In this document: positions 14,046 to 48,162 of the stretch, one piece after another
Layout: each line of letters starts with the position of its first letter
Position numbering within the stretch: the stretch's first letter is position 1
Translations under genes and position numbers: made by a program
Source: a virus
Length of the DNA: 64,000 bases
IMG/VR virus record: IMGVR_UViG_3300020173_000943
Span: 1 to 64,000 of that record
Reading direction: 5' to 3' (one strand)
Notes under the pieces: model-generated
Database searches by the model: none
Told to the model about the DNA's origin: nothing
What the model saw: only the letters and a program-made list of their open reading frames with translations

Positions 14046-14714
14046 ATGCTTACTCTATTCACATCAGGTAGTACAGATGAACCAAAACGTGTAACACACT
14101 CTTGGGAATATATTAACCAATCTGCAAAACTTTCAGCAAAAGAAATTGGACTAACTAAAGACGATATTGTATTGGATGTCTTTCCAGCAAACACTATAGC
14201 ACACTATACTATAACAGCTCTTCCTGCTTATATAAGCGGCGCACAGCTAGTTAGTGCTAACTTTAATGCACTTACCTACCCTACGTTGTTTAGTAGCGTT
14301 AAACCGACGTATATAGCGTTAATTCCACGCCATTTAGAGTTGTTACAAAAGACAAAAGGCTTTAAAGACTTAGACATGAGTTGTGTACGTTATATGGTTA
14401 CTGGTAGTAGTAAAATTGAGCAATCATTTATTGATGCATTCAAAGAGCGTGGAGTACAGACTGTTGCTAATTGGTACGGCATGACAGAGTATGCTCCGCC
14501 GGTAATGATTGGATACGATTCACCTAGTTTTGATTTTAACACTATAGATGAAAAAAGAACACATGTGATGTTTAATCCAATTACTGCTACATCTAAGTTA
14601 GCCCATTGTATTATTAATGGTAAAAGTACAGGCGATATATTTGACATGAATACTAAAACATTTTCACACAGGATGAATATAGCTAATGGTAAAACTTGGA
14701 AAAATGAATTTTAG
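14046..14714 (+). CDS. Minimal AMP-forming ligase core (ANL superfamily), lid missing
   Basis: ANL enzymes activate a carboxylate with ATP as an acyl-adenylate. Residues 6-14, TSGSTDEPK, are the Ser/Thr-rich P-loop; Tyr144 to Glu148 (YGMTE) match motif A5; STGD (194-197) matches A7. The 222-aa protein starts right at the P-loop and stops near the hinge, so the usual 150 N-terminal residues and the whole C-terminal lid are absent. It could adenylate a substrate for another enzyme or be a binding remnant. It overlaps the next gene by 11 bases. Confidence 0.8.
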   Translation: MLTLFTSGSTDEPKRVTHSWEYINQSAKLSAKEIGLTKDDIVLDVFPANTIAHYTITALPAYISGAQLVSANFNALTYPTLFSSVKPTYIALIPRHLELLQKTKGFKDLDMSCVRYMVTGSSKIEQSFIDAFKERGVQTVANWYGMTEYAPPVMIGYDSPSFDFNTIDEKRTHVMFNPITATSKLAHCIINGKSTGDIFDMNTKTFSHRMNIANGKTWKNEF

Positions 14715-15264
14715 GTTTGCTACTAAAGACGATGAATCGTTAGTAGAGAAATTTTGCAAATCACAAAACTTCAGCAATAACACATCTCTTAAAAAAATGA
14801 AATGGGAATGGGTACTAGAAGAAGGTGCTTGGACTGTTGCTACACACAAAGATAAAATTGTTAGTATTGCTGGCATACATAAACTACCCGAAGTTAGTCC
14901 AGATGCATATAGATGTTTATTCCGTGGTGCCCAATTACCTGGTTATACATTAGGCACTGGTAGAGATATTTTTAAGACTGGAATACAACTAAGTCAGTTA
15001 TTAAATTTGCAAATCAATTGGGCATTAGAACAAAGTCTCAATGCAGAACTTTATATTAGTACAAACATAAATGATGATGGTGGTAAAAGTAAACGTATGA
15101 ATGATACTATGATGCCATTATTAGCAAGACGTGGTATATGGAAGTTAGAACAAAGTATGATGTTGTTTAATGTTCCACAGCGTCTGTGGCGTATTAATGT
15201 TCTAAAGTATATGGAAGAGCGTAACCTTTCGCTAGGCAACGATAACTGTACTCATCAAAAATAG
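14704..15264 (+). CDS. GNAT-like acyltransferase (tentative)
   Basis: 186 aa from MNFRFATKDDESLVEKF, an opening like that of many GNAT proteins. The middle has VATHKDKIVSIAGIHKLPE, the usual antiparallel strands, then a GYTLGTGRDIF segment where the acetyl-CoA loop would be, though the classic Q/R-x-x-G-x-G is not exact. I prefer 14704 to 14686 as the start because the latter deepens the overlap with the ligase gene. Its last 71 bases overlap the 3' end of the opposite-strand halogenase gene. Coupling to the ligase suggests joint work on an acyl group. Confidence 0.55.
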   Translation: MNFRFATKDDESLVEKFCKSQNFSNNTSLKKMKWEWVLEEGAWTVATHKDKIVSIAGIHKLPEVSPDAYRCLFRGAQLPGYTLGTGRDIFKTGIQLSQLLNLQINWALEQSLNAELYISTNINDDGGKSKRMNDTMMPLLARRGIWKLEQSMMLFNVPQRLWRINVLKYMEERNLSLGNDNCTHQK

Positions 15265-16309
15265 CAAACGGTGTCTTTTTAATCTTAATTTCTTTAACTT
15301 CGTTTTTCCAATATGGAGTATTTTTACTAGTTGCAGTATAGTGAAGTTCTAAAAACTTTTCAATATGCGTTACAACCTTTCTCCATTGTGCGTTATAGAT
15401 TTTTTGCTTGTTATAAAGTCTTACTAGCATTTCTACTTGGTATTGTATTAACCATATTGCTTGTGCTTCTAATGGTTCTAAAAATCCTGCACTTAAACCT
15501 ACATTTAGAATATTACCTTGATAAGGAGTATCACTATATTGTCCTGTCCACTCAATTACTCTTAACTTATCTAATTCTAGTTTATACGGACAAGTATCTA
15601 TGAACTCTTGTTTTGCATCTTCTATTGTTTGGTAGTCTTTATTAAATACATATCCATTACCTATTCTATTTTGTAAATAGATATTCCACATCCATCCTGC
15701 ACTCATAGCAGTAGTTTCTGTATAATACTTTAGTTCAGTATCATAACTAGGTGCTACTACTGCACAGTTATTTTTAAGACTAGATTTAATCATATTAGTT
15801 TCAGGAAATAGTTTATTAAATCCTGCACAATTAATAATTAAATCTGCGTCAATATCATCTATAGTGTCTAATGTTTTGTTTATTAGTTTAACGCCATTAG
15901 GTAATGCTACTTTATCTCTAAGCATTATTCCAAACTTGTTAGCATCAATATGATATGCGTGGCGCCATTTTTTATCTGGCATTTCATAATTTATCATCCA
16001 ACGCATTTGTTCGTCATGTTCTGATTCATTAAAACAAAAATGATGATACCAACTATCACCGTGCCAATTTTTGTGTTTAATTGTATACTTGCGTACAGCA
16101 TCACAATCATCAAACAGATCTTGTTCAGTTAATCCACACTCTTGAATAAAATCGTATATACTTGGAAGTGTGCTTTCGCCTACTCCAATGATAGGGATAT
16201 CTTGACTTTGAATAAGTGTAATGTCCCAATCGGTTTTTTTAGAAAGATAAGCGGCAGTCATCCATCCAGATGTACCACCGCCTACTATAACAATTTTTTG
16301 TTTAGACAT
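15194..16309 (-). CDS. Flavin-dependent halogenase-like protein (tryptophan halogenase family)
   Basis: The family adds Cl or Br to indoles and phenols using FADH2 and oxygen. Seen: FAD-binding GGGTSG (10-15), IGVGESTLP (41-49), a candidate catalytic lysine in IKHKNW (Lys78/Lys80), GWMWNI (205-210) which matches the W-x-W-x-I-P motif except that Pro is Tyr, and GFLEPLEA (275-282). At 371 aa it is about 150 residues shorter than PrnA or RebH, so the substrate site must differ. I start at 16309, overlapping the thioredoxin stop by 8 bases; 16354 would run far into it. Confidence 0.86.
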   Translation of the reverse strand: MSKQKIVIVGGGTSGWMTAAYLSKKTDWDITLIQSQDIPIIGVGESTLPSIYDFIQECGLTEQDLFDDCDAVRKYTIKHKNWHGDSWYHHFCFNESEHDEQMRWMINYEMPDKKWRHAYHIDANKFGIMLRDKVALPNGVKLINKTLDTIDDIDADLIINCAGFNKLFPETNMIKSSLKNNCAVVAPSYDTELKYYTETTAMSAGWMWNIYLQNRIGNGYVFNKDYQTIEDAKQEFIDTCPYKLELDKLRVIEWTGQYSDTPYQGNILNVGLSAGFLEPLEAQAIWLIQYQVEMLVRLYNKQKIYNAQWRKVVTHIEKFLELHYTATSKNTPYWKNEVKEIKIKKTPFAIFDEYSYRCLAKGYALPYTLEH

Positions 16310-16625
16310 GTTTATCAATAAATTGTTTGATTTGTTCTTTTGAACTGTCACCATATAATGTTCCTAATACAGTTGTACTTGAATCAGTGTGTTCAAATAC
16401 TTTAACGCAGGGAACCCCGTGTACTGTGAATCTGTTGTATGTAGAGGGATTAGGATCTACTTCTGATTGTGCAAAGTTAACTTCACTATAGCTAGATTCT
16501 AGTTGTGCAAAGTTAGTTTGAAACTGACTGCTAGGGCCGTTCCAGTTAGCATAGAACAACATCACACACCGACCACGTGTAGTATCTAAGTACTCGTTAA
16601 AGTTTGTATCTGTAACTTCTTTCAT
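16302..16625 (-). CDS. Thioredoxin-fold protein lacking the redox cysteines
   Basis: 107 aa with thioredoxin layout: VMLFYANWNGPSSQF carries the active-site region at 29-32 as N-G-P-S in place of C-G-P-C, and GVPCVKVF has the cis-proline. With both catalytic cysteines replaced it cannot work as a disulfide reductase. A scaffold or partner role, as for thioredoxin in some polymerase complexes, is possible. It is translated together with the halogenase (8-base overlap). AAGGAAG precedes the start. Confidence 0.82.
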   Translation of the reverse strand: MKEVTDTNFNEYLDTTRGRCVMLFYANWNGPSSQFQTNFAQLESSYSEVNFAQSEVDPNPSTYNRFTVHGVPCVKVFEHTDSSTTVLGTLYGDSSKEQIKQFIDKHV

Positions 16626-16633: not shown

Positions 16634-17350
16634 CTAACTTCCTTTTATATTTGGCTTTTCCCAGACTTTTTCAACCTGTGAAGTTTTTATACTGAAATAG
16701 ATATGTATTCTATCTGTGTCGCCATAATTTACAACATCATGAGGTTGTGTACTATTAATAATATAACACCCGTCAGTTGGCATTAAGAACGGAGTTCCGC
16801 CTATTGTCCAATTGGTTTTATCATTAGTGTATAAAGGTAAATGTACTGTAAGCCATTGTGGCTCATCTTGATGCATACCTAAGCGTGTTCCTGGTGTATG
16901 TTTTACTACTACCCATTCAAATGCATCTTTATCTAATCCCATATCAATTAGTGCATTGTGTATATCTAACAAATAACCAAATAACTGTTCTTCTTTAATA
17001 CTATATAACCCACACCCTTGTCCATATACACAACCCCAACTGTTAGGTTCTGTAGTTTCTCCTTGGTAGAGAAATTCAGTATCTGAATATTTTTCTAAAA
17101 ATTGTTTATACCAATCACGGGCTTTCTCTAGATCAAACTCAAACCATTTATGCATTTGAAATCCTAGATCATGGTATGGATATATTTCACTTACACGATT
17201 AAAACTAGGAGCAAAGGTTTCTCTGCCTTGAGCGTTTTTAAAATGGCATCTATCTGGATTATTCTTTTTATCGTAGTCTACATATTCGTGATAGTCAGCG
17301 AACATTTTTCCTGTGGCGTCTTGGCAGGGCGTATCGTTAAAACGCTCCAT
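16634..17350 (-). CDS. Fe(II)/2-oxoglutarate oxygenase, Asp/Asn beta-hydroxylase-like
   Basis: 238 aa. The iron triad appears as His160-x-Asp162 in MHQDEP and His204 in TQPHDVVN; Arg214 in DTDRIHIYF would bind 2-oxoglutarate. LTVHLPLYTND between them is the usual core strand of the aspartyl/asparaginyl beta-hydroxylase family. Such enzymes hydroxylate protein side chains or free substrates. A long Cys-containing N-terminal region (1-110) is extra and has GCVYGQGCGLY. It lies 8 bases upstream of the thioredoxin-fold gene in the same operon. Confidence 0.85.
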   Translation of the reverse strand: MERFNDTPCQDATGKMFADYHEYVDYDKKNNPDRCHFKNAQGRETFAPSFNRVSEIYPYHDLGFQMHKWFEFDLEKARDWYKQFLEKYSDTEFLYQGETTEPNSWGCVYGQGCGLYSIKEEQLFGYLLDIHNALIDMGLDKDAFEWVVVKHTPGTRLGMHQDEPQWLTVHLPLYTNDKTNWTIGGTPFLMPTDGCYIINSTQPHDVVNYGDTDRIHIYFSIKTSQVEKVWEKPNIKGS

Positions 17351-17355: not shown

Positions 17356-18603
17356 TTAACTAGAATAAGTTTCTAGGCTTAAATTAACTGGAATAAGTTT
17401 TGATGTTTTAGAATTAAGATCTACAATAGCCATATCACTACCTAACCCTGCATCACTAAAATCAAACTTGTAAGGTGCCAACATTGTAACACTATCAGTA
17501 TCATTAATTGATCCTGAAGTAATATTTGCAGTACCTAAGTCCATAACTTCGTTAATTGCAGTTCCTTCAACTTTAAAAACTTTAGTTGTTGGATTTACCA
17601 TGCTTGGATTTTGTATTGATGGAAACAAGTAAACGTCTCCAGCATTAATAACTGGTTTACTACCTAGTGACTCATTAGTTGCAAAGCTATCAATAGCAAG
17701 TGTATCTAAGTTTAATGATACAAACTCTTTACAGCCTTCCCAACAAGTATGTGTTAATAATGTGTTACCGTTCATAGTTCCGTATTTGAAACCCATTTGT
17801 CCACCCATGTCATCTGTGCTAGATGAATCATAAGCAACTGATTGAACTGTATCACCGTCATATACCCAGAAGTTAAATTCTGTAGTACCGTCCATAATTA
17901 ATGGAGCACCAACTGCTTTAGTTCCGTTTGTATTAACATGATAAAATGCACCGTTAGTTGGAGCTTCATGTGCAGTAATTGTATTTGTTTCCATGTCTAA
18001 TGTTAACAACTTGTTAGTTGTTTTACCATATGGAAAAAATACAACTTCATTTAAATCTTCTACGTACACACTATGAATAGAAGCAAACTTTTCTTCTGTT
18101 TCGTGTACAGTAAATGTATTAGCAACAGTATCAAACACAATAATCATTCCACTCATAATTGGTGGATAAACAATTTTAGTACCAACTGTAATTGGGCGAC
18201 CAAAGTTAAAGTGTCCACAGAATGTTTTAGGAGTTTCTGAGCCGTGTACTGTAACACCTTTTTCTTCAATCATTGTAACTTCATTAGTATCTAAGTTTAC
18301 AGCCGCTACTCTAATAATGCTGTCTACTTTGTCTTTTTGTGTACGCATTACATATGCTGTATTACCTACAACTGCAATACCTCGGTATCTGTCACCGTTA
18401 TCACTTTTATCAAAAAAGTCTACAAATGTAGTACTATCTGCATTTACTCTAAGCAATCCTGCTCTTGCACCTGCATCTTTGTTAAAATCTCTTGTTTCTT
18501 CGCCTTCGTGACGTGCTTTTCCGTTAGTGATTACTGACAAAAATTCACCATTTCCTAAGTGGTATGGTTCGTCTAATACCTGTGTAAAATATGTGTTGCT
18601 CAT
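17356..18603 (-). CDS. Beta-propeller-like protein, 415 aa
   Basis: Built of repeating units of four short strands with patterns such as VVGNTAYVMRT, VVFFPYGKTTNKLLTLDMETNTITAH and VGTKIVYPPIMSGMIIVFDT, as in six- or seven-bladed propellers. No signal peptide or catalytic motif. A late promoter (GATAAATA) and an AGGAGATAA ribosome site precede it, so it should be made late. Possibly a virion or cell-surface binding protein. Similar in style to the two plus-strand propeller genes at 25616-27965. Confidence 0.66.
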   Translation of the reverse strand: MSNTYFTQVLDEPYHLGNGEFLSVITNGKARHEGEETRDFNKDAGARAGLLRVNADSTTFVDFFDKSDNGDRYRGIAVVGNTAYVMRTQKDKVDSIIRVAAVNLDTNEVTMIEEKGVTVHGSETPKTFCGHFNFGRPITVGTKIVYPPIMSGMIIVFDTVANTFTVHETEEKFASIHSVYVEDLNEVVFFPYGKTTNKLLTLDMETNTITAHEAPTNGAFYHVNTNGTKAVGAPLIMDGTTEFNFWVYDGDTVQSVAYDSSSTDDMGGQMGFKYGTMNGNTLLTHTCWEGCKEFVSLNLDTLAIDSFATNESLGSKPVINAGDVYLFPSIQNPSMVNPTTKVFKVEGTAINEVMDLGTANITSGSINDTDSVTMLAPYKFDFSDAGLGSDMAIVDLNSKTSKLIPVNLSLETYSS

Positions 18604-18621: not shown

Positions 18622-19350
18622 TTATTTATCTGCTATATTGCAGTTTATTAATAAAAGCGATTGCATAAAATCGTCATCAACTCTGGACAATAAGTGTACT
18701 CGCTCTGTACTTCCGTTATTTTCTGTACCATGTGGAACTAGGGTATTAATTATATATCCTTTGCCCAATTCCATGTGATATGTTCGTTCTCTGTTTTCGC
18801 CAAAAGTAAAAACAGCATCTTTATTTGTATAAAATGGAACATGTAGTTTTCTAGTTTTTCCGTCAGTATGTGTATTAACTTTAAGTCCACTAGGGTGTAA
18901 TGCTATTAACATCTGTCTTAATGATTGCAAAGATAGTGTTTCTAACATTTTGTTTAAGATACCAAATTTATAAACTTGCATTGGTACACAATCATAATAG
19001 AATTTTTCTTCATCTAAATTTTGTAATTCAGGATACATATCAATGTTAGCTTGTGATTTACTTGGACATGGAATATCTCGCTCTATTGGCCAACTAACAC
19101 TCCAACCTTGTACGTTTCCTTGATAATTTCCAACTGCATTTTCTTTTTGAAATCTATCATATATTTCAGGACGTAGATATTCTTTAGAATTAAAACTAAA
19201 GCATAAATTTTGTAATCGTGTTTTTAATTGTGTATAATAGAATTCTAAATCATCTTTATTAATGCTAAAGTCTAATTCAATTATATCCCATTCGAGACTA
19301 TTAAATAATGCATCAACATCTGTTATATCTTTAGCAGTTAATAATCTCAT
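18622..19350 (-). CDS. Fe(II)/2-oxoglutarate oxygenase, Asp/Asn beta-hydroxylase-like
   Basis: 242 aa. Iron ligands His161-x-Asp163 (THTDGKTRKLHVPF) and His207 (VPHGTENNG) with Arg217 (STERVHLL) for 2-oxoglutarate. The N-terminal 90 residues are unrelated to those of the oxygenase at 16634, so the substrates probably differ. It overlaps the next upstream oxygenase gene by 4 bases. A late promoter motif lies over its 3' end region and serves the downstream propeller gene. Confidence 0.85.
   Translation of the reverse strand: MRLLTAKDITDVDALFNSLEWDIIELDFSINKDDLEFYYTQLKTRLQNLCFSFNSKEYLRPEIYDRFQKENAVGNYQGNVQGWSVSWPIERDIPCPSKSQANIDMYPELQNLDEEKFYYDCVPMQVYKFGILNKMLETLSLQSLRQMLIALHPSGLKVNTHTDGKTRKLHVPFYTNKDAVFTFGENRERTYHMELGKGYIINTLVPHGTENNGSTERVHLLSRVDDDFMQSLLLINCNIADK
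18623..18630 (-). promoter_or_regulatory. T4-type late promoter motif, minus strand
   Basis: TATTTATC on the plus strand reads GATAAATA on the minus strand, 20 bases ahead of the propeller gene start at 18603. It lies in the last bases and just past the stop of the oxygenase gene. Distance and strand fit a late promoter. Confidence 0.65.
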
Positions 19351-19898
19351 ATGTAATGTTCAGCAGGTACTTTAAAAAATAAATGTACTCTATCTGTTTC
19401 TCCGTTATTAATAGTACCGTGTGGGCGTCTAGTATTTATTAGATATGCTTTTCCAATAACTAACGAATATTTTTTATCACCAAATACAAAACATGCATCA
19501 GGGTTACTTAGTATAGGAATATGTATTTTAAGATATCTATCAGTGTCGGTGTGCTGTGCTATTTCAGTTCCGGGTGGATGGCCGCTAATACTAAACTGTC
19601 TTGCTTGAGGAAATTTTACTTTAAGTCTATTAATTACACCGTATACTAATTCAGTATCTCTATAATCATCGCTACCTTCCTTGTGTACATTCCAAGGTGG
19701 ACAAGGTATTGTTAAGTCGTCTAAATTACTTTGTATACCCCAACCGTATACACCATCAGTTTTATGTTTTTCACTATTAACAGTATCAGCTACATTAGTA
19801 AATTTTAAATGTTCAAAGTTTGTTTGTAATCCTATGTAGTAACTTCTAAAGTCACTATATTCGATCCCTATAGGTAATTCTTTTACATCAAAGCTCAT
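19347..19898 (-). CDS. Fe(II)/2-oxoglutarate oxygenase, Asp/Asn beta-hydroxylase-like, short
   Basis: 183 aa, the smallest of the seven. His116-x-Asp118 (QHTDTDRYLKIHIPI), His160 (RRPHGTINNG) and Arg170 (TDRVHLFF) are complete. The segment from residue 105 on closely resembles the neighbour at 18622, so these two are probably recent paralogues. Overlaps the phosphatase gene upstream by 11 bases and the oxygenase downstream by 4. Confidence 0.86.
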   Translation of the reverse strand: MSFDVKELPIGIEYSDFRSYYIGLQTNFEHLKFTNVADTVNSEKHKTDGVYGWGIQSNLDDLTIPCPPWNVHKEGSDDYRDTELVYGVINRLKVKFPQARQFSISGHPPGTEIAQHTDTDRYLKIHIPILSNPDACFVFGDKKYSLVIGKAYLINTRRPHGTINNGETDRVHLFFKVPAEHYI

Positions 19899-20316
19899 CT
19901 AGTGTATTCCTTATAATTGTATATGCATACTTTCCATTATGTTTAATTCTAGTATTATTTACATAATCTGCAACTGCTTTGCTACGTGATTCGCCTTTCA
20001 TACAATGAACATGAATTGTTCCACAAGCATCTTTAAGGAAATTTGAAATGTGTTGAATTTGTGTTAGGGTTGGTGCAACTGCTTTGTAATATGATTGTAT
20101 ATCTTCTCCCCAATTTGTTTGATCTTCAGCAACATCATCAAAACATAAATTTAATACATTGGGATGAAATTGTTTAAAATAAGGCTCACTGTTTGGACCA
20201 CCTGTTGAATCAATGCAAATATAATAATCATTAGTATCTTCAACTGTTACATCTGTGATATTTTCACTTTGCATTTTAGATACAAAGTCTTTCTTACTAT
20301 AACTTACGGCAATCAT
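19888..20316 (-). CDS. Dual-specificity/tyrosine phosphatase-like protein
   Basis: 142 aa with the phosphatase loop H-C-x5-R-S: His104, Cys105, Arg111 and Ser112 in VHCMKGESRS. Upstream, LNLCFDD (55-61) sits where the general-acid loop of small dual-specificity phosphatases lies. The usual hydrophobic core of the family is recognisable, so it should be active on phosphotyrosine, phosphoserine or a small phosphate ester. It is tightly coupled between two oxygenase genes (20-base overlap upstream). Confidence 0.82.
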   Translation of the reverse strand: MIAVSYSKKDFVSKMQSENITDVTVEDTNDYYICIDSTGGPNSEPYFKQFHPNVLNLCFDDVAEDQTNWGEDIQSYYKAVAPTLTQIQHISNFLKDACGTIHVHCMKGESRSKAVADYVNNTRIKHNGKYAYTIIRNTLDEL

Positions 20317-20944
20317 CTGTCCAAACCTTTCCGTATAAATGTATCCTATCCGTTGTACCTTTGTTTTCTACACTATGCGGAATAGTTGTGTTAACAAGAT
20401 AAGCCCAGCCTACTTCCATATGGTATTCTTTTCCGCCTATTATCCAATTACTGTCTGCATTGGTATGTATAGGTATGTGTACACGTATTTTATCTGGAGC
20501 GTCTTGGTGTGTAATTAATTTAGTACCTGGTGTATGAATAGTTACTAACCATTTCTTACTACGCATAGGCAAATTGTTTACTAAATCTAATCCATATCCT
20601 TTAAAACATTCCCTTGGATTAAGCTCGTCATTATCATTATCTCTATACTCTGGCTTTGCACACCCTTGTTCAAATGGTTTAGGTCCCGGTTCATCACTAT
20701 TCCAACAAAGAGTATAGTATGCTGTATCGTCCATTAGACGATGCCCTGTCTTTGCTTCAGGATCACTAATAGGAAACTGCCATACATGTTGTTGTTCACC
20801 TATAACAAATTTCCAATCGCTGTAATCTTTTTCTAAGTCAGCGTACCAACTTTGTATTTCATCCGGATTAACTCTGCATAACTTTTTAACTGCCCAGCCT
20901 AAGTCTGCTTGGTCATGTTCCTCTATGTAACGCTTCATCTCCAT
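20297..20944 (-). CDS. Fe(II)/2-oxoglutarate oxygenase, Asp/Asn beta-hydroxylase-like
   Basis: 215 aa. His146-x-Asp148 (THQDAPDKIRVHIPIH), His190 (IPHSVENKG) and Arg200 (TDRIHLYG) form a complete site. The order H-x-D, 40-45 residues, H-x10-R is the same as in the other island oxygenases. GAGG lies 8 bases before the ATG at 20944, which overlaps the upstream stop, so I keep that start over the ATG two codons later. Confidence 0.86.
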   Translation of the reverse strand: MEMKRYIEEHDQADLGWAVKKLCRVNPDEIQSWYADLEKDYSDWKFVIGEQQHVWQFPISDPEAKTGHRLMDDTAYYTLCWNSDEPGPKPFEQGCAKPEYRDNDNDELNPRECFKGYGLDLVNNLPMRSKKWLVTIHTPGTKLITHQDAPDKIRVHIPIHTNADSNWIIGGKEYHMEVGWAYLVNTTIPHSVENKGTTDRIHLYGKVWTDDCRKL

Positions 20945-22413
20945 TAGGCGTACCTCTGATGTGTTAGTCTAACACCGTTACGCACTCGTGAATTCATATC
21001 AACTGCAACATAGTCGTGTCCATACAACACAAGATCGTCTGGTATTTGAGCTTCAAACTTTGCCCATTGTTGTTCTAACTCTTCTGGACCTAGATTCCAA
21101 TGAAGCATTTCGCTTGACCATATGTTTGTAGTCCATAATACCTTAGTACCATGCACACTATTAATAACATCAAATAATTTAGTATTATCATATACAAGAT
21201 CTACTACATGAAATTCATGTTTTAAATTTTTATATCTTTCCCAGAGTCTTTGAAATGCTAAACTACCACCAAAGTCTTTTAATTCTTGTTCCCAAAACTG
21301 TTTATAGTTTCCTCTATAGGTACTACTAAAATTATATTCAAGATCATGTTCAAGTAACCAAGCATCTAAATCATACCCGTCCCATGTTTCTAATAAATGC
21401 TTTTTATAGTTTAAACTTGCTTCGCACCAATCAAAATAATGTACTGTTGTACCCGCATGAAAGCCGTTAGCATTTAAAATAGCAAGAGGTTTAAAACCTG
21501 CGGCCGCACTAAACAGATGATCAATTAGTTTGCCTCCTGTACGAACACCTTCACTACTTAATGTTTCAGTATTAAAAGCATATACACGATTCTTTTCAAT
21601 TTCTTCTTGATATCCTAACTTACGTATCCACGCTCTTTGACTTTGATTTGTTAATTCGTCTACTACAGGGCTTTGTTTGTCATACCATACTTTGCTTAAT
21701 TTTTCAGAATCAATGTACGGATACAAAAATACTTTGCAGGCTCGCATATCGTTGTCTAAATTATCAATCTGTATGTTTTTACGCATAGCAATATCAATCC
21801 AATTAGAACCATCGCTAGTTGTAGCATACTTACTTGTGCCTTGCATGGGTTTAATCCATTTAGGTGTGTAAGTACTGTGAATAGTATCGTCACTTAGACA
21901 ATAATTTTGTAACTCCGGTTTTCTGTCCCAAAAAACACCCATCTCATCAAATGCTGGCTTTCCTAATTCAACCCATTTACTTAAATTTACAAACAAGTAT
22001 TGTCTATGTAACCCAGGGTATGCACCTTTAGTAAGATAATGTTGATTCTTCTTGTCCATAATATGTCCAACTACAAAAAACTGCGGATTATTTTTTGCAT
22101 ATTCCACACTTTGTTGCACTAAGTTTGGACCTCTAAACAATAACAGTCCTTGACATGCTACCATTGCAAACTCTTTGCCTTTTACTAGTGCTTCTTCAAG
22201 AATTGTTTCAACACGGTTATGAAATCCTACGTAACTACACATGTTCATCTTTAACATACGGTTAACATAAAAATATGTCATATCAAAAGAACGCTTTTGT
22301 ACTGTAGCATCTGGTATGTCACGACTAATATTAAGAATTCCTACACCAACACGATTGTCGAGATTGAGATTCTCGTAGTATCTATCAGCTGTGATGCTAT
22401 TCCAGTCTTTCAT
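20944..22413 (-). CDS. Large conserved hypothetical protein, 489 aa
   Basis: I do not recognise an enzyme family with confidence. The N-terminal 200 residues include VACQGLLLFRGPN and VVGHIMDKKNQHY and read like a nucleotide- or sugar-binding Rossmann fold. The C-terminal third is rich in Trp and Tyr: YFDWCEASLNYK, LEYNFSSTYRGN, VLWTTNIWSSEMLHWN and DLVLYGHDYVA. A glycosyl- or methyltransferase-like role is possible. It sits between two oxygenase genes and overlaps one by a single base. Confidence 0.62.
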   Translation of the reverse strand: MKDWNSITADRYYENLNLDNRVGVGILNISRDIPDATVQKRSFDMTYFYVNRMLKMNMCSYVGFHNRVETILEEALVKGKEFAMVACQGLLLFRGPNLVQQSVEYAKNNPQFFVVGHIMDKKNQHYLTKGAYPGLHRQYLFVNLSKWVELGKPAFDEMGVFWDRKPELQNYCLSDDTIHSTYTPKWIKPMQGTSKYATTSDGSNWIDIAMRKNIQIDNLDNDMRACKVFLYPYIDSEKLSKVWYDKQSPVVDELTNQSQRAWIRKLGYQEEIEKNRVYAFNTETLSSEGVRTGGKLIDHLFSAAAGFKPLAILNANGFHAGTTVHYFDWCEASLNYKKHLLETWDGYDLDAWLLEHDLEYNFSSTYRGNYKQFWEQELKDFGGSLAFQRLWERYKNLKHEFHVVDLVYDNTKLFDVINSVHGTKVLWTTNIWSSEMLHWNLGPEELEQQWAKFEAQIPDDLVLYGHDYVAVDMNSRVRNGVRLTHQRYA

Positions 22414-39963: not shown

Positions 39964-39989
39964 TATGTTCTCCAATCATTATATACGCA

Positions 39990-39997
39990 TATAAATA
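39990..39997 (+). promoter_or_regulatory. T4 late promoter (perfect TATAAATA), plus strand
   Basis: TATAAATA is the exact T4 late consensus, 27 bases before the ATG at 40025 in a 61-base divergent gap. A second late motif in the opposite direction begins 7 bases further on. Confidence 0.78.
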
Positions 39998-40003
39998 CAG
40001 TAG

Positions 40004-40011
40004 TATTTATG
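40004..40011 (-). promoter_or_regulatory. T4-type late promoter motif, minus strand
   Basis: TATTTATG on the plus strand reads CATAAATA on the minus strand, 40 bases before the dehydrogenase GTG at 39963. Head-to-head with the plus-strand TATAAATA, this makes a divergent late promoter pair. Confidence 0.68.
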
Positions 40012-40024
40012 GAAAGTTACCCTT

Positions 40025-41308: not shown

Positions 41309-42155
41309 CACACCTCAAAGAATATTCACATTTGGTTGTAGCTTTACAGGATATCAATGGGGTACATGGGCTAACATTTTAGGTGTAGAATTTCCTGATG
41401 CAGAGTTTAGAAATTTTGGTCGCAGTGGTGCAGGTAATCAGTATATACATAATATGATTATGCAGGCTGATAATGTGTACACATTTGATCATAATGATTT
41501 AGTTATTGTGCAATGGACTAATGTATGTCGTGAAGATAGATTTTTACCTGAAAAAGATGGTTGGTTAGTTCCAGGTAATATATTTTCTCAAGGAGAGTAT
41601 GATCAGCATTTTTTAGAAAATTATTTTAGTGAGTATGGGTCATATGTTAGAGATTTTGCACTAATTAAAAGTGCTCATCAGTTATTAAAGCATCGCACAC
41701 AACATCACATGATTAAGATGTTAGATTTTGAATTTCCAAATCAATGGGAGTTGACATCAAAGAAAAATATAAATCTTGAAACACTTGCTGGATTATATCA
41801 CGAATGTTTAGATGCAATTCTTCCTAGTTTTTATCACACACTATGGAACAACGATTTACAGGCAAAGACTGTGAAAGATAAAGGACTAGTCCACAAAGGA
41901 TTTCAAGACGGGCATCCTAGTCCACTTGAACATTACGATTATCTAAAACATACATTTAAACACGACTGGAAGGAATCTACTGACAAAGCAGTCGGTGCCG
42001 CACAAACTAAATGGATTAAGTTGATGCAAAGTGCTGTTCTAAGTCAAGAAGGTGCATTTAGTTTATATAGTATGAAACCGCGTTGGTTAGATATGTTAAA
42101 GTACGAAACTATTATGCGTCCTAATACACAAATTAATCCGTTAATACATCAATAA
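41289..42155 (+). CDS. SGNH hydrolase-like protein
   Basis: 288 aa. IFTFGCSFTGYQWG holds the serine elbow with Ser18; GRSGAGNQY is the next block (Gly, Asn); DGHPSPLEHYDYL supplies the Asp/His pair near residue 215. Blocks I, II and V are thus all present, so activity is plausible. The last 23 bases overlap the opposite-strand radical SAM gene. Paired with the glycosyltransferase gene by overlap, it may act on a sugar ester. Confidence 0.78.
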   Translation: MKKLIHNTPQRIFTFGCSFTGYQWGTWANILGVEFPDAEFRNFGRSGAGNQYIHNMIMQADNVYTFDHNDLVIVQWTNVCREDRFLPEKDGWLVPGNIFSQGEYDQHFLENYFSEYGSYVRDFALIKSAHQLLKHRTQHHMIKMLDFEFPNQWELTSKKNINLETLAGLYHECLDAILPSFYHTLWNNDLQAKTVKDKGLVHKGFQDGHPSPLEHYDYLKHTFKHDWKESTDKAVGAAQTKWIKLMQSAVLSQEGAFSLYSMKPRWLDMLKYETIMRPNTQINPLIHQ

Positions 42156-43326
42156 GTTCAGGAAACGTTTCGTTAAAAGAACGATTACGAATTTTATCAA
42201 AGTACATATTGTTAGATTTAAACAAATCATTTGCACTTTGATCAAATGTTGACTTGTGCAAGTAATCAATAACACCATTTACATATCTTAAATGTTCTGT
42301 ATGTGTTACTGTATTTGCGTATGCTTGTAACTTATCTATTGCAGTTTGTCTTTGTTCATCTGTTAGTGCATTAAAACTGTAGTAATTAGGTTCAACAATA
42401 TTATAAAGCGTACTGTTGTTTACATCAAATCCTTTGCTAGACATATATTCTAAAAAGTCTACAAGTGTTAATACATTAAATGCACTTACTACACAATTAA
42501 AACTAATAATTACATGCGGACTTTCTTTTTTAATAATTTTTAAGTTTTGTTCTATAGTTGGCCAATCAGTACCTTCTCTAATATACTCGCCTCTGTTTCC
42601 ATAGCCGTCAATACTTGCACGTACTTCAACGTGTTTAAAATTATTCCAATACTCTGTAATACTTTTCTTCTTAAAAAATAAATTACTTAAATTACTGTTG
42701 TATTGCAGTACAGCATCAGTCTTTTTATTTTCAATTAAATAATCTAAAATATCATAATGCTTATCTGTAATAAGAGGCTCGCCACCTGCAAAATAATAAT
42801 CTTGAATACCTTTAAGGTACGGCTTAAACTGTTCAAACAAATTATCGTTGTTATCTCCGCCTGCAAAAATGTATACAGGTTTATTTTCACCTTGCTTGTT
42901 ATCTTCTACAGCCCATGTAGAACTGTAAGTACTACTACAGGTTCTGCATTTAAAATTACAAATGTTGCTCCAACGTACATCAAAGTATAGTAACTTCATT
43001 ATATCTAACGAACCGTCAAAATTGGTTTCGTCTTTTATACTAATATGCTGTGCAAATCTATTATTTTGTGCAATTCTATTGCTTTCTATTCCTGCTTCTT
43101 CGTGTTTCCAACATTGTGTACAAGCACTAGGCTTTTCATTGTTTAATAATGCAAGTCTTAATTTTTTATATTCTTCACTATTCCATATTTCTTTAATAGT
43201 GTTTTTACGTGTGTTGCCAAGAGGTTGACGCCAATCACCTATACAACAAGGAAGTACATTGCCGTCTGGATTAGCATAGAAATGAATCCACGGAAGTATG
43301 CAAAATGTATTACTTTCCGCAGTCAT
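42133..43326 (-). CDS. Radical SAM enzyme with N-terminal twitch/SPASM-like cysteines
   Basis: 397 aa. N-terminal FCILPWIHFYANPDGNVLPCC with Cys9, Cys27-Cys28, Cys69 and Cys72 is the auxiliary-cluster module; the core motif is Cys123, Cys127, Cys130 (ICNFKCRTC) and AGGEPLI. C-terminal 120 residues are cysteine-free and end with RSFNETFPELIDVL. Very similar in order to 33061 and to 43310. Overlaps the upstream radical SAM gene by 17 bases. Confidence 0.87.
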   Translation of the reverse strand: MTAESNTFCILPWIHFYANPDGNVLPCCIGDWRQPLGNTRKNTIKEIWNSEEYKKLRLALLNNEKPSACTQCWKHEEAGIESNRIAQNNRFAQHISIKDETNFDGSLDIMKLLYFDVRWSNICNFKCRTCSSTYSSTWAVEDNKQGENKPVYIFAGGDNNDNLFEQFKPYLKGIQDYYFAGGEPLITDKHYDILDYLIENKKTDAVLQYNSNLSNLFFKKKSITEYWNNFKHVEVRASIDGYGNRGEYIREGTDWPTIEQNLKIIKKESPHVIISFNCVVSAFNVLTLVDFLEYMSSKGFDVNNSTLYNIVEPNYYSFNALTDEQRQTAIDKLQAYANTVTHTEHLRYVNGVIDYLHKSTFDQSANDLFKSNNMYFDKIRNRSFNETFPELIDVLTD

Positions 43327-44683
43327 TATAAAAGCCTTCTAGTTCTGGAAAAGTTTCTACCAAATTACAGTTACGTCTACGATCAAATTCTTTGAACCAG
43401 TTATGAAAATCTCTACGTGCTTGTTCTAGCTTACGTGGTTCATAATGTGTTGTACGCATATACTCTACTACACGTTTAAACTTTTCGTATTCTAACCCTG
43501 TAAACTTAGTACGATTAGTATCGTCTTGGTTATCTTTAATAAATTGTAAGTGTTTTTCCATATACGGCATAAATTCTTCTTTAGGTAAAATGTTCATGTC
43601 ATATATGCTTGGTTCTTTTAAATGAGGTGTATCAAATCTAATACGTTGCCACTGAGTAGCATTGTCATCACTATTGTATTTTGTACGCCACTCTAGTATT
43701 TTTTCTAATAGTTGCGTAAAACTAGTTACACCAAATATATTAAACGTAATCATAAATGTTACAGGCCAGTTTGTATTGCTTAGATAATAATCTAAGTTTT
43801 GTTCCCATAACTTAATGTCTAACCCGGTACGTGCATATTCTGCTCTTGGTCCCCAAGTATCAATACTAGTGTACAATTTAAAACTTTTAATCTTGCCTTC
43901 TGCTTTTAAACGCTTAACTGTTTCAGTTAGTCTTTCAACTAGCTTGGGCTTAACACCCATGTTACTGTTTACTTCAATTTGTATGTGTGGCTTAGGATCG
44001 TTATCTAACTTTTCTAACAGTTTCCAAAAACTTTTATGCATCAATGGTTCGCCGCCTGTAATACGCAAAATGTTTAGTGTCTTACTAAGTTCAGGCCACC
44101 ATTCCCAAAACGCTTTTACGTATGGATTCGTGTCTTCGTCTTTTTGTACTTCAAACCAATCAATGTCTTGTCTATGTGTGCTTGACATATCGTATGGTCC
44201 ATGTTGTTTTATTTCGTTCCAATACCTACTAGAGGCTTTAGGGTGACAGTATCCACACTTAAAATTGCATTCATTACTAAAACTAATTTCAATATACTCA
44301 GGATTTACGTTAAAATCCGCCCCTTTTTGTTTTATTTCCGCTACTCTTTCAGGTGTGTATATACTTGCAGTTTTAATATGTCTATCACTTACAAAGTCTT
44401 TACCCATTGCTTCAATTTTCCAACAGTAACTACAACCGTCTGGTTTATCTCCGCATAGCATTTGTTTACGCTGTTCTTTTTTCTCAATAGTATTATGTAA
44501 CGCACTAGGATTGCCTTCTAATTCTTCTAAAGGAATTTTATGCGGAGCAGGATGATAACAACTATGTGTTTCTCCTGTTGCAAGATAGATAGTTGTGTGA
44601 TGCCATTTTGCTAAACAGAATGTTGGAGAGGTTTCATCCTCAATTTTAGGCATTAGTGTTTTAATTTTTTCTAATTCACTCAT
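43310..44683 (-). CDS. Radical SAM enzyme with N-terminal cysteine module, 457 aa
   Basis: The longest of the set. N-terminal TFCLAKWHHTTIYLATGETHSC with Cys23, Cys42 and Cys84/Cys87 replaces the usual CC pair with a single Cys. Core motif Cys139, Cys143, Cys146 (ECNFKCGYC), TGGEPLM. The C-terminal 150 residues are helical and end with RNCNLVETFPELEGF, which matches the tail of the gene at 42133. GEHSCYHP suggests a different metal environment from its paralogues. Confidence 0.86.
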   Translation of the reverse strand: MSELEKIKTLMPKIEDETSPTFCLAKWHHTTIYLATGETHSCYHPAPHKIPLEELEGNPSALHNTIEKKEQRKQMLCGDKPDGCSYCWKIEAMGKDFVSDRHIKTASIYTPERVAEIKQKGADFNVNPEYIEISFSNECNFKCGYCHPKASSRYWNEIKQHGPYDMSSTHRQDIDWFEVQKDEDTNPYVKAFWEWWPELSKTLNILRITGGEPLMHKSFWKLLEKLDNDPKPHIQIEVNSNMGVKPKLVERLTETVKRLKAEGKIKSFKLYTSIDTWGPRAEYARTGLDIKLWEQNLDYYLSNTNWPVTFMITFNIFGVTSFTQLLEKILEWRTKYNSDDNATQWQRIRFDTPHLKEPSIYDMNILPKEEFMPYMEKHLQFIKDNQDDTNRTKFTGLEYEKFKRVVEYMRTTHYEPRKLEQARRDFHNWFKEFDRRRNCNLVETFPELEGFYNDCGK

Positions 44684-45564
44684 TTACGAATAACTCTGTC
44701 CGTGTTAATGTATACTTGTTTGAAAAAATGACTTTGTTCATCGTCAAAGGGTGTAGATGAGATAGGTAATCCGCACTCGCTACTAAGACTTTGACCTAAT
44801 TCTTTGCTGTATACTAATGGATCTTTATTTTTTGTTTCTTCCCACAGTTTATTAAGATATATAAAATCTCTTGTTTGCACAAAGTCCCAATCTGTACACA
44901 TTGTCATGTAACAACCTTGTCTTGCTCCCATTACACTCCATATTCCATTGTCTACATCAGCACCAACCTGCATCCATATCAACAAACGTTGATAATTTTG
45001 CCACCAAGTATCGTTTGCAAGGTCTTTAACTTTAGCACCCCTATTCAAACTCATCTTAACTCCTTCACGGAACCCTGCTCTCCAGGCTTGATGTGGAGTT
45101 GCATTTATAAGACTTGTACTATAGTTGTCATTTAATTGATAGTAATTATCAAAGTAACAAAATTCAATACTAGTATCATCTTCACCGTCTGTGTTTTCAT
45201 GCGTTTGCATATTTTTTACAAAGTCTTTAGTCCACATTTTTAAACTGCCATTACCATATTTTAGTCCGTTAACATTAATATGTCCGCACCAACTAAATTG
45301 ATAATCATCGTCAACTTTTAATTCGTCTAAGTCTAGTACTACGTTTAAAAACTCTGGGTCAATAATTGTATCGCCGTCTACTGTAACAAAGTGTTTAGTT
45401 TCGCTCAATTCAGCACAGGCTTTGTGTGCGGCATCTGATCCTTCTACACCGTGTACACGTTTTGCCCACGGAACCTTGTTAACTAAATCAACAAAATTCT
45501 TTTCACAGTTAGGTTCGTCATAACTTAAAAAGATAATATCTTGCTCTGCAATGTTTATTTTCAT
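44680..45564 (-). CDS. Glycosyltransferase-like protein (GT-A type)
   Basis: 294 aa. Begins INIAEQDIIFLSYDEPNC and has D-x-D at Asp63-Gly-Asp65 (FVTVDGDTIID). NGLKYGNGSLKMW and QAWRAGFREGVKMSL match the protein at 37202, which is shorter by 70 residues. The same enzyme type therefore occurs twice in the island. Overlaps the neighbouring genes by 4 bases each side. Confidence 0.76.
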   Translation of the reverse strand: MKINIAEQDIIFLSYDEPNCEKNFVDLVNKVPWAKRVHGVEGSDAAHKACAELSETKHFVTVDGDTIIDPEFLNVVLDLDELKVDDDYQFSWCGHINVNGLKYGNGSLKMWTKDFVKNMQTHENTDGEDDTSIEFCYFDNYYQLNDNYSTSLINATPHQAWRAGFREGVKMSLNRGAKVKDLANDTWWQNYQRLLIWMQVGADVDNGIWSVMGARQGCYMTMCTDWDFVQTRDFIYLNKLWEETKNKDPLVYSKELGQSLSSECGLPISSTPFDDEQSHFFKQVYINTDRVIRK

Positions 45565-46148
45565 TTGATTACCTCGTATAAGTATCTATCAAAGTTTTTA
45601 ATTGTATACACACTAACTGGTTTTGCTTTAAATTCAAAATCGCTATCAAATGGAAGTATTACATATTTTACGTCTGATAAATCAGCAAAACTAAAACTTA
45701 ATGTTTTTAGTAATATATTTGGATCGTCTTTTTCAGTAACACTAAACGATATAGTATTTTTAAAATTAACTTTTTGTGCTAAAATATTTGCTTTTAGATC
45801 TCCGCCAATAGTAATCTTCCAACATGTGTCTTTGATATTTTGTAATACATGAATGTCTGGCTCATTAACTGATGTCATTGGTAATTCGTATATTAAATCA
45901 TTTACTAGATAACTATCAATGCTAGTATTTGAACGCTGTCTAAGTTCATATTGTTTAGTATGTTTGATGTAATGTACATAATAATAACTTAGCGGTTCTT
46001 GTCCCGAAATTAATCCTTTAACTTCGTGTTCCTCTACAGGAATATAATTACCATCTGGTTTATAATTAGGTACTGCTAACACATCACCGTTATTAGGATC
46101 AAATACTACATATCTTTCTTGTTTAGGCAACTCCGCAGTTAATATCAT
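45561..46148 (-). CDS. Hypothetical protein, beta-rich, 195 aa
   Basis: Alternating hydrophobic and polar residues (VVFDPNNGDVLAVPNY, YVHYIKHTKQYELRQRS, SFSVTEKDDPNILLKTLSFSF) suggest a beta-sandwich or propeller fragment. No catalytic motif. It lies between two glycosyltransferase genes in the minus-strand operon, so it may be a binding domain for the same glycan. Unrecognised. Confidence 0.58.
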   Translation of the reverse strand: MILTAELPKQERYVVFDPNNGDVLAVPNYKPDGNYIPVEEHEVKGLISGQEPLSYYYVHYIKHTKQYELRQRSNTSIDSYLVNDLIYELPMTSVNEPDIHVLQNIKDTCWKITIGGDLKANILAQKVNFKNTISFSVTEKDDPNILLKTLSFSFADLSDVKYVILPFDSDFEFKAKPVSVYTIKNFDRYLYEVIK

Positions 46149-46978: not shown

Positions 46979-47819
46979 TGTCTATGATCCTATTCAAACT
47001 AAACTTGTTCATAACGTGAACACTACTACCTTTAATACGCAAAGGTGTGTATTCTCCAAGGTGTCCTTCTTTTTCTACTAAAAATAAAAAGTTGTCATCT
47101 TTTAATTCCCACAAAATATCTCTATCTGCTGTATAATATTTTTTACCCGGTAATGAACTTGCAAAATCTCCTGCTTGATAACCATTCATAATATGTATTG
47201 CAATACTAAACACCCAATCATTACGAAACGTTGGTTTGTTAATTTGAAATATACTGTTATAGTGTTGCCAGTTATCTTGTATATGTTGTGTTAAATTAAA
47301 AAATGTTTCTACTTCTTTGCTTTTTTTAAAATATACAACTGTCGCCCAATAAAAATCAATACTAGTTTCACTAATTTTTTGAAACTCGGTAGTATCTCTA
47401 AATCCTGTTAGGTCTTTTGCATCTTTATATATTAAGAAATTGTGTTCTTGTGTAAAACAATGTTTGAGTACATCATTTGCAATTATATAATCACTGTCTA
47501 ACATTATTGTTTCGTCATACGGTGTTAGTTTATAGGCTTGTGTACGCAAGTCATTTTTAAATGATAGTTGTTTGTATACCCCCGAGCCGTCATAGTAACG
47601 TTTTTCGCTGGCGCCGCGAGCATATGGAACTTCGATTACATTATCAAATACTGTATCATAATCGACATAGGTATCTTTTAAGTATTCAACACTATCTGTT
47701 ACAACAGTTGTTGGTAAATTAAGATATTTGCTTATACGCTTTGCTAGATAATATGCTTGTTTAAGATAATCAACTTGTTCGTTATTTCTAGCAAATATTA
47801 ATGCACCTTTATTCTTCAT
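46971..47819 (-). CDS. Glycosyltransferase-like protein (GT-A type)
   Basis: 282 aa. ALIFARNNEQVDYLKQAYYLAKRI is followed by TIMLDSDYIIAND with Asp108 and Asp110, then WATVVYFKK and FSIAIHIMNG, in the same order as in the protein at 46145. It overlaps that gene by 8 bases and the small conserved gene upstream by 11. GT-A fold likely; donor unknown. Confidence 0.74.
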   Translation of the reverse strand: MKNKGALIFARNNEQVDYLKQAYYLAKRISKYLNLPTTVVTDSVEYLKDTYVDYDTVFDNVIEVPYARGASEKRYYDGSGVYKQLSFKNDLRTQAYKLTPYDETIMLDSDYIIANDVLKHCFTQEHNFLIYKDAKDLTGFRDTTEFQKISETSIDFYWATVVYFKKSKEVETFFNLTQHIQDNWQHYNSIFQINKPTFRNDWVFSIAIHIMNGYQAGDFASSLPGKKYYTADRDILWELKDDNFLFLVEKEGHLGEYTPLRIKGSSVHVMNKFSLNRIIDND

Positions 47820-48162
47820 ATTCTACAAGCCCAGAGACCTTTCGAAGGCTCCGTATCTTTTCGTATTCTGTTAGGTACTCGTTTGATGCTGTAAAGTAGA
47901 TATTTAAAATGTCACCTAAGAATGTTTCAACATCTGCAACTTTAATAGGAATATCATTGTCGTCAATTAGTACTACAGACTCTTGTCCTGTGTTTACTAA
48001 CATACTACAAAAATTCATTAGGTCTTTGTTTACGGAGAATTGTCCACCATTGTGGTAGTGTATTGCACTTTCATAAAACTTCTCTTTTAACACCCGTTTT
48101 TGGTTGTTAAGAGTAGTCATATAATTGGCAAAATCTAATGCTTTTTCAAGACGTTCATCCAC
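47809..48162 (-). CDS. Conserved phage protein, 117 aa
   Basis: The pattern ALDFANYMTTLNNQKR, YHNGGQFSVNKDLMNF and VLIDDNDIPI matches a small protein family I recall beside fibre genes in T4-like cyanophages; its job is unknown. It carries no catalytic motif, is helical at both ends and acidic at its C-terminus. It is the first gene of the minus-strand accessory operon (42133-48162) and has a likely sigma-70-type promoter in front. AAGGAG ribosome site lies about 10 bases before the ATG. Confidence 0.7.
   Translation of the reverse strand: MDERLEKALDFANYMTTLNNQKRVLKEKFYESAIHYHNGGQFSVNKDLMNFCSMLVNTGQESVVLIDDNDIPIKVADVETFLGDILNIYFTASNEYLTEYEKIRSLRKVSGLVEYEE

Follow-up and report, generated by a model that had tools for sequence, protein, structure and literature searches.

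A radical SAM- and oxygenase-rich gene island in a phage tail-fibre locus that may modify virion proteins

We analysed a window of 64,000 nucleotides (bases 1-64000 of the 186,342-base IMG/VR virus record IMGVR_UViG_3300020173_000943), in which positions 14046-48162 hold a 34-kb island of 41 genes rich in radical S-adenosylmethionine (rSAM) enzymes, 2-oxoglutarate (2OG) oxygenase-like proteins and glycosyltransferase (GT)-like proteins. Genes are named by their first coordinate and their extents are collected in Table 1. The original prediction, made from the nucleotide sequence alone, had proposed a late-expressed decoration pathway for a virion protein, a glycan or a peptide. The virion protein is the best supported of these, because fibre genes bracket the block and two cultured relatives have a conserved odd tail on a putative substrate. 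With evenly balanced confidence, we propose that the island enzymes post-translationally decorate tail-fibre or adhesin proteins.

A tropism-determinant-like gene borders the island on the left, and a tail-fibre/structural module followed by a giant virion structural protein gene borders it on the right; the island is thus the enzyme content of a tail-fibre locus. Every related locus with sufficient room (41 of 41, several sharing a contig) has a match to this left-border gene on the far side of its 14046 homologue. This match was within 2.5 kb in 35 loci, and in the other six it was an N-terminal piece only, slightly farther away. At least 587 stretches in IMG/VR matched the 44680 profile, and gene order was counted in the top 80 of them, a sample that leans to close relatives because only the best matches were kept, using hidden Markov models built from the window and from contigs outside the 80. 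The order 48214 - 47809 - 46971 - 46145 preceded the 44680-family gene in all 61 loci with 4 kb upstream, a fibre gene was present in all 54 loci with 6.5 kb, and at least one rSAM gene lay downstream in 52 of the 54 loci with 7 kb. The same core was found in the divergent contigs L057, L147, L149 and L165, where the 44680 protein is 39-55% identical; the 47809 counterpart in L147 and L149 was recognised by eye only, and L149 has one extra open reading frame (ORF). Three island proteins used as queries retrieved 36, 35 and 24 loci, several of them on the same contigs. A recurrent block in related phages had been set beforehand as the test of the idea, and scattered morons without conserved order as the outcome against it. 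In the relatives, order was kept, contrary to the latter outcome, and genes and cassettes were gained and lost.

All nine rSAM proteins of the original prediction were confirmed. Each carries CX3CX2C and each matched PF04055 (23048, 24120 and 27940 on the plus strand; 29587, 33061, 34355, 36265, 42133 and 43310 on the minus strand), with seven above the curated cut-off in the protein scan and eight in a six-frame search. Two proteins, 34355 and 42133, were under the PF04055 cut-off in the protein scan and had SPASM above its own cut-off. The whole record of 186,342 bases gave nine PF04055 matches, every one at 23.2-44.3 kb. QueE, which had been placed outside the island, is indeed separate, at 3623, and was identified via PHROGs. 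Five of the nine (24120, 27940, 33061, 42133 and 43310) exceeded the cut-off of 170 for N_Twi_rSAM (NF033640); 23048, 29587, 34355 and 36265 were below it. The SPASM/twitch Cys cluster in these five proteins is N-terminal to the rSAM core, as judged from Pfam for 27940 (weakly), 33061 and 42133 and from Cys positions for 24120 and 43310, and SPASM follows the core in 23048 and 34355. When the N-SPASM rSAM profile was compared with solved structures, the peptide maturase SkfB came first (E 2.8e-9).

A candidate substrate was found in cultured phages. Fibre gene 52443 matches, in its N-terminal part, Agrobacterium phage Atu_ph07 (490 kb) and Sinorhizobium phage Phosso (469 kb), each of which has four PF04055 matches within about 6.5 kb. 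Between the fibre gene and the rSAM genes lie three small opposite-strand genes and a JmjC/cupin gene in Atu_ph07, and one gene in Phosso; the JmjC/cupin protein by the rSAM genes scored 33.8 bits against JmjC_2 (cut-off 22) in Atu_ph07 and 22.1 bits in Phosso. Atu_ph07 gp170 and its Phosso counterpart gp289 sit between the rSAM genes. Their bodies are 42% identical, and their last 18 residues are identical at 15 of 18 positions (DFCHSSCHASCHNSRSRR vs DYCHTSCHASCHSSRSRR), with the pattern CHxSCHASCH. gp170 matched no Pfam family and had no relative outside Atu_ph07 and Phosso among 50,697 phage records. According to the available passages of the Atu_ph07 study, CDS (coding sequences) 170-215 form one of three clusters holding most virion proteins (PMC6102473); because this cluster starts at gp170, gp170 may be in the particle. 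Both phages resemble the island in placing rSAM genes (four PF04055 matches) shortly behind a fibre-gene homologue, together with a JmjC/cupin protein, and they differ from it in having fewer genes, no PF05118 match and no 44680 relative; no counterpart of the CHxSCHASCH-tailed protein was found in the window. Position, the core GTs, the oxygenases and the conserved Cys/His tail of the candidate substrate together favour modification of a virion protein. In two further proteins, KVP40.0254 (L320 7225-7818) and QD01_260 (L059 16152-16658), a structural-looking N-terminus, recognised by reading only, is followed by a Ser/Thr/Tyr/Trp/Arg-rich repeat tail of about 100 residues or more. Both lie a few genes from GT-like and N-SPASM-type rSAM genes, and KVP40 0256 matches Glyco_transf_52 below its cut-off.

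Seven Asp/Asn-hydroxylase-like oxygenases had been predicted, and all seven have HxD...H. Six (16634, 18622, 19347, 20297, 22415 and 31162) were above the PF05118 (Asp/Asn-hydroxylase) cut-off; the seventh, 30519, had no Pfam match and has HxD with a later H. No further PF05118 match was found elsewhere in the record, and none of 14 control genomes has one. The halogenase-like protein also held up: 15194 is a flavin halogenase by PF04820 (244.6 bits against a cut-off of 21; E 2.6e-72). The best of its solved relatives was a tryptophan 5-halogenase (5e-44), and VirX1 (PDB 6qgm), of the same family and with 531 vs 386 residues, ranked seventh (1.6e-39). The expected Lys and Glu of 15194, which we take to be the catalytic residues, align with 2wet. 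Flavin halogenases have the motif WxWxIP; at this position 15194 reads WMWNIY, and the Pro is absent.

Four or five GTs had been predicted, and several GT-like proteins were found. Structure models indicated a GT-A-like fold for 44680 and for the N-terminal half of 20944, and 37202 was assigned by alignment; 46145 and 46971 were recognised by reading only, and the GT-like 40025 had no Pfam or PHROG match. Foldseek of the 44680 model put the protein S-glycosyltransferases SunS/ThuS and a capsid GT of PBCV-1 at the top (E about 1e-4, TM about 0.3), and in a second fold search many unrelated GT-A proteins ranked equally. For 20944, which has 31 distinct homologues, VIA gave Z 8-9 to many GT-A folds and the best Foldseek match was COLGALT1, a weak one (E 8e-3). 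Solved-structure searches with the 20944 and 44680 sequences gave nothing meaningful. On these models, the GT-A-like folds of the island GTs do not reveal the acceptor. Hydroxylase gene 22415 beside GT-A-like gene 20944 recalls LH3/COLGALT1 and mimivirus R699 (collagen-type), with weak fold resemblance, tied for 20944 with unrelated GT-A folds; collagen-type hydroxylases presumably belong to a different oxygenase family from the island's. The dehydrogenase that had been predicted, 38791, is a UDP-sugar dehydrogenase. Its companion among the claims, a short-chain dehydrogenase/reductase (SDR), was matched only weakly (29042, PHROG E 0.0024), and the two methyltransferase-like proteins (31797 and 35346) matched neither Pfam nor PHROGs. 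The 45561 slot within the GT core is variable: its ORF is 20-58% identical where 44680 is 60-79% identical, some loci have a different gene there, and in ten none was found by the ORF rule.

Other parts of the island appear as exchangeable units. The three genes 31162, 31797 and 32483 were all present in seven and all absent in 20 of 27 loci (24 contigs) spanning 30519 to 33061, with no partial set; loci in which a flanking gene had a low score were excluded from this count. The propeller-like pair 25598/26835, 21% identical to each other, accompanies 24120 and 25168 in many relatives and is missing from others; a solved-structure search for the pair gave nothing meaningful. The halogenase slot of relatives ranges from 26 to 100% identity. 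Pairwise ratios of nonsynonymous to synonymous substitution rates (dN/dS), calculated with one relative per gene for 29 of the 41 island genes, some with saturated dS of about 2-3, were 0.03-0.22 for 28 genes; 31797 gave 0.35 with a dS of only 0.14. The island genes compared are under purifying selection.

In the mechanism we propose, the island products would act, inside the infected cell and before assembly, on fibre or adhesin proteins of the phage itself, modifying them. The core GT trio, fixed beside the fibre genes, would attach sugars, and the UDP-sugar dehydrogenase and SDR-like proteins would supply or alter them. Asp/Asn-hydroxylase-like oxygenases could make side-chain hydroxyls on which GT-A-like proteins such as 20944 would act. 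The SPASM/twitch rSAM enzymes might introduce C-C, C-S or C-O changes at unactivated positions, and the halogenase might act on aromatic residues. The phage would benefit through receptor binding that is altered or variable, or through a protected particle. More tentatively, we suggest that many large phages run a dedicated line that matures their adhesins post-translationally, akin to ribosomal-peptide chemistry and directed at virion proteins. In it, GTs would sit fixed by the fibre genes, and exchangeable cassettes of rSAM, hydroxylase and halogenase genes would diversify the chemistry of the receptor-binding surface in addition to its sequence, with the CHxSCHASCH tail of gp170/gp289 as the first recognisable substrate.

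Several points weigh against decoration of virion proteins. Late expression, the benefit, the substrate and every reaction are things we infer, and the presence of gp170 in the virion is suggested by the cluster boundary 'CDS 170-215' in the passages available (PMC6102473). No hyperconserved tail was found in four fibre/core protein families of the source clade, and the rSAM genes of KVP40 were not seen adjoining fibre genes. The GT core has no nearby rSAM gene in two of 54 loci, L303 and L315. The loci behind the cassette and order counts lie on related contigs, many of them near relatives, so the counts represent few independent events. The GT fold matches are generic for GT-A, with low TM-scores and many unrelated ties, and the N-SPASM profile also finds, more weakly, MoaA and a sugar-nucleoside decarboxylase. 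The sugar dehydrogenase would suit a glycan pathway equally well, as would a sugar aminotransferase, an epimerase, a PIG-L deacetylase and a carbamoyltransferase in the remote relative L147.

These last points fit the main rival explanation, which we consider unlikely: the island would remodel the surface glycans (O-antigen-like) of the infected cell and block superinfection by rival phages, with rSAM enzymes and oxygenases tailoring the sugars. GT-like proteins, the UDP-sugar dehydrogenase, the SDR-like protein and two SGNH-like proteins (37877 and 41289, by reading only) are what such a pathway would use. Phage O-antigen conversion of the gtr type has a flippase and a membrane-bound GT; no such protein was found among the Pfam matches of the island proteins, and the island encodes one clear transmembrane protein (35954, 104 aa, hydropathy 2.47), although host machinery could serve instead. 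Two proteins with borderline hydropathy at the threshold of 1.6 (31797 at 1.63 and 42133 at 1.84) were discounted. The GT genes keep a fixed link to fibre genes, the three-gene cassette carries a fibre-like protein, and rSAM genes flank a structural-looking protein in Atu_ph07 and Phosso, all of which argues against host glycans as the target. A role in host glycans was proposed for pelagimyophage GTs by the authors who described them, in the passages available (PMC7029224).

That no single pathway exists, and that a recombination hot spot by the fibre genes gathers separately selected metabolic cassettes, we regard as distinctly unlikely. The independent variation of the cassettes, the wide identity range of the halogenase slot and the span of PF04055 matches per record, from 0 to 15 with fragments included, speak for such a hot spot. 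Against it stand the core order, kept in 61 of 61 loci, the order kept by sub-blocks in many relatives, purifying selection on the 29 genes compared, and the confinement of all nine PF04055 matches of the record to the island.

It is quite improbable that the island makes a diffusible product, such as a ribosomal peptide or a small molecule, by means of the AMP-binding protein, the halogenase and the rSAM enzymes. Natural-product clusters often contain halogenase, adenylation-like and SPASM proteins, and the island has family matches to PF00501, PF04820 and NF033640. Its genes are tightly packed: 33 of 40 adjacent pairs overlap, one abuts and six are separated by 1-49 nt (the listed ORF of 23048 begins at TTG 23048; the start at 23153 was chosen and used in this count). 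The space between genes, to which this count is confined, therefore offers no room for a precursor gene of its own. The Pfam scan covered all 41 island genes, 40 of them at E up to 0.01, with a motif audit alongside, and no PqqD-like domain, carrier protein or exporter was among the matches of those 40. The AMP-binding protein 14046 starts near the TSGST motif and spans less than half of its profile; its homologues adjoin a 14686 homologue in related loci. Least plausible of all is modification of phage nucleic acid, which would be in line with the queuosine-type genes at 2567-4522 and is at odds with the tie of the block to fibre genes in relatives and with an oxygenase family of Asp/Asn hydroxylases.

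That no phage system combining these parts at this scale is known, as the original prediction had it, is too strong a claim. The available passages of a 2010 report describe 11 rSAM genes in Campylobacter phage CP220 and 12 in CPt10, with an exchangeable cluster containing five (PMC2853527), and those on Campylobacter phage CC_R7 give five (PMC12398825). Like the island, CP220/CPt10 have at least five clustered rSAM genes (nine in the island) and several T4 homologues; unlike it, they have a glycine amidinotransferase, for which no Pfam match was found among all 41 island proteins. Their authors propose a benefit for host metabolism, and the passages at hand mention neither linkage to fibres nor hydroxylases (PMC2853527). 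The pelagimyophage host-recognition cluster, corresponding to the T4-like hyperplastic region, contains GTs and rSAM gene cassettes; in the passages available it resembles the island as a large variable block with tail-fibre genes, several GTs and gradual cassette change (PMC7029224). The island likewise has fibre genes on both sides, several predicted GTs and variable content among relatives, and goes beyond the cluster as described in those passages in its nine rSAM proteins, seven oxygenase-like proteins, halogenase and fixed GT trio (PMC7029224). Halogenases are known in cyanophages, according to the available part of one report (PMC10452541). PF04055 matches numbered 4-10 in each of eleven related contigs and 0-15 in 18 further records, fragments included. 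One of these contigs, G025 (169-kb, viral, of L290), has 15 PF04055 matches in 37 kb (16.5-53.4 kb), more than the window.

As far as we searched, the exact mix of chemistries in the island was not found in the literature passages on these phages. Within the same limits, three things appear new: a fibre-GT-rSAM core of invariant order, an enzyme set of this size and composition, and, in cultured phages, a conserved protein tail associated with rSAM genes. A literature search that left out subscription journals and preprints gave no report that we recognised of rSAM action on phage tails, and no assigned function for phage rSAM sets was found in the literature searched. The analysis places these rSAM genes next to tail fibres and behind a fixed GT set; the key GT of this set was matched at least 587 times in IMG/VR, and a small form of the arrangement exists in cultured phages. 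The proposal is testable, since it offers a concrete candidate substrate and a related phage without rSAM genes. Among complete relatives lacking the rSAM island, PF04055 matches number zero in PA5oct and one, a short one, in an Erwinia phage; PA5oct carries fibre-type relatives of 52443 (five matches) and structural proteins whose annotation rests on mass spectrometry. If virion proteins are decorated in this way, the host range of these phages and the properties of their particles would rest on covalent chemistry invisible to sequence-based host-range prediction, and many new protein-acting rSAM, hydroxylase and halogenase enzymes would be available from such islands.

Table 1. Positions of the features described in the window. 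'Reading only' marks labels given by inspection of the sequence.
Feature	Position	Strand	Basis
Tail-fibre / tropism-determinant-like protein, left border	12628..14001	+	Pfam Mtd_N 44.3 bits, cut-off 26.3
Minimal AMP-binding (adenylation-like) protein, 222 aa	14046..14714	+	PF00501 E 2.9e-21, profile 168-331 of 384
Acetyltransferase-like protein	14686..15264	+	Reading only; no Pfam or PHROG match
Flavin-dependent halogenase, short, 386 aa	15194..16354	-	PF04820; PHROG tryptophan halogenase; PDB 2wet, VirX1 6qgm
Thioredoxin-fold protein without CxxC	16302..16625	-	PF00085 9.9e-14; active-site region NWNGPSSQ
Asp/Asn beta-hydroxylase-like 2OG oxygenase	16634..17350	-	PF05118, HQD...H
Repetitive, propeller-like protein	17356..18603	-	Reading only; no Pfam match; weak match to phrog_29595
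Asp/Asn beta-hydroxylase-like 2OG oxygenase	18622..19350	-	PF05118, HTD...H
Asp/Asn beta-hydroxylase-like 2OG oxygenase	19347..19898	-	PF05118, HTD...H
Dual-specificity-phosphatase-like protein	19888..20316	-	HCMKGESRS; DSPc E 0.0032, below cut-off
Asp/Asn beta-hydroxylase-like 2OG oxygenase	20297..20944	-	PF05118, HQD...H
GT-A-like protein with second C-terminal domain, paired with hydroxylase 22415	20944..22413	-	AF2 (AlphaFold2) pLDDT (model confidence) 75
Asp/Asn beta-hydroxylase-like 2OG oxygenase	22415..23113	-	PF05118, HQD...H
rSAM, C-terminal SPASM	23153..24130	+	PF04055, PF13186
rSAM, N-terminal SPASM/twitch Cys cluster	24120..25193	+	NF033640 227.8 bits; Cys positions
Mini-kinase-like protein	25168..25635	+	H-x-DWVLSN ... 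DWDN, motif invariant in 12/12 aligned sequences; weak kinase profiles E 0.018
Two repetitive propeller-like proteins	25598-26842, 26835-27965	+	Reading only; no Pfam family above cut-off
rSAM, N-terminal SPASM/twitch	27940..29061	+	NF033640 223.5 bits
SDR-like protein	29042..29590	-	PHROG FabG-like E 0.0024, weak
rSAM, short, C-terminal Cys cluster	29587..30522	-	PF04055 40.1 bits
2OG-oxygenase-like protein	30519..31175	-	HRD...H; no Pfam match
Mobile three-gene cassette: hydroxylase 31162, methyltransferase-like 31797, fibre-like 32483	31162..33061	-	PF05118 for 31162; other labels reading only
rSAM, N-terminal SPASM/twitch	33061..34386	-	NF033640 418.5 bits
rSAM, C-terminal SPASM	34355..35353	-	SPASM 28.4 (cut-off 21.5); PF04055 28.6 (cut-off 29.5)
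Small membrane protein	35954..36268	-	Hydropathy 2.47
rSAM, short, C-terminal Cys cluster	36265..37224	-	PF04055 48.9 bits
GT of 44680 family	37202..37876	-	About 30% identity to 44680
UDP-glucose/GDP-mannose dehydrogenase-like protein	38791..39975	-	PF00984, PF03721
T4-type late-promoter octamer TATAAATA	39990..39997	+	27 nt before 40025
rSAM, N-terminal SPASM	42133..43326	-	NF033640 387.2 bits
rSAM, N-terminal SPASM/twitch Cys cluster	43310..44683	-	NF033640 329 bits; Cys positions
GT-A-fold glycosyltransferase-like protein, core gene	44680..45564	-	AF2 pLDDT 86; fold matches
Small protein between GTs	45561..46148	-	Fast-evolving or replaced in relatives
Two GT8-like proteins	46145-46978, 46971-47819	-	DxD motifs (reading only), no Pfam match; invariant order
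Core small protein	47809..48162	-	Invariant order; no Pfam match
Tail-fibre/structural module, right border (48214, 49112, 50632, 52443, 54477)	48214..55091	-	PHROGs tail fibre, tail collar, structural
Giant virion structural protein	55113..63671	-	phrog_10938 E 8.3e-66; frame open to window end

An earlier gene list had left out 14046, 16302, the three propeller-like proteins, 25168 and the fibre genes on both sides. Within the right border, 54477 matches a PHROG family of unknown function.

The source phage is a T4-related jumbo phage, because its terminase is closest to the group of jumbo phage PA5oct (54% identity; 50% to Phosso). A marine origin is probable, as relatives occur in contigs filed as Pelagibacter and similar. 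The contigs L147, L149 and L165 (perhaps also L119 and L126) are phage-like; their database labels are genomes of Pelagibacter, Verrucomicrobia and Rickettsiales. The island is also present, at 99-100% protein identity, in a second record (267,783 bases). Against the 50,697 phage records, a near-identity search with 24 kb gave no match, and neither did tblastn with a Cys-rich fibre-like protein or with 24120, 22415, 32483 or 44680. Matches were obtained for 33061, in five Vibrio phages (22-25% identity), and for 42133, in 37 phage records, all below 60%. The GTP cyclohydrolase and QueE-like rSAM genes at window positions 2567-4522 suggest 7-deazaguanine DNA or queuosine chemistry.

Outside the window, the record encodes three paralogous Gly-rich proteins (119533-120273, 121008-121778 and 121791-122597; L017) with 25-27 Cys in about 250 aa and CCC motifs. 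They follow a 2040-aa fibre-like protein and are conserved in the close clade. This trio was considered as a general rSAM substrate and rejected: it was found in four of 16 records (G000, G001, G002 and G012; most of the others are fragments) and in one of nine in a second set, and it is absent from the complete genomes of KVP40, Atu_ph07 and Phosso. A scan of the record for low-complexity or Cys-rich ORFs flagged, within the window, rSAM gene 24120 alone.

Late expression, also part of the original prediction, is weakly suggested by one copy of the octamer TATAAATA before 40025. This octamer was rarer than in shuffles (1 vs 12.8), and a reversed-pattern control was about as rare in the record (7 vs 5); rarity therefore says nothing, and position alone counts. 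Of the five copies in 186 kb, four precede an ORF start by 5-34 nt and one has no start scored; three of the five are intergenic. Five distinct upstream sequences of 40025 relatives were compared: one, near-identical, has TATAAATA, three have CATAAATA, and a remote one has neither. The divergent intergenic gap 39976-40024 has TATAAATA on the plus strand and CATAAATA on the minus strand, and three distinct relatives have CATAAATA on both strands in the gap before 40025. From these motifs, the gap is possibly a bidirectional late promoter.

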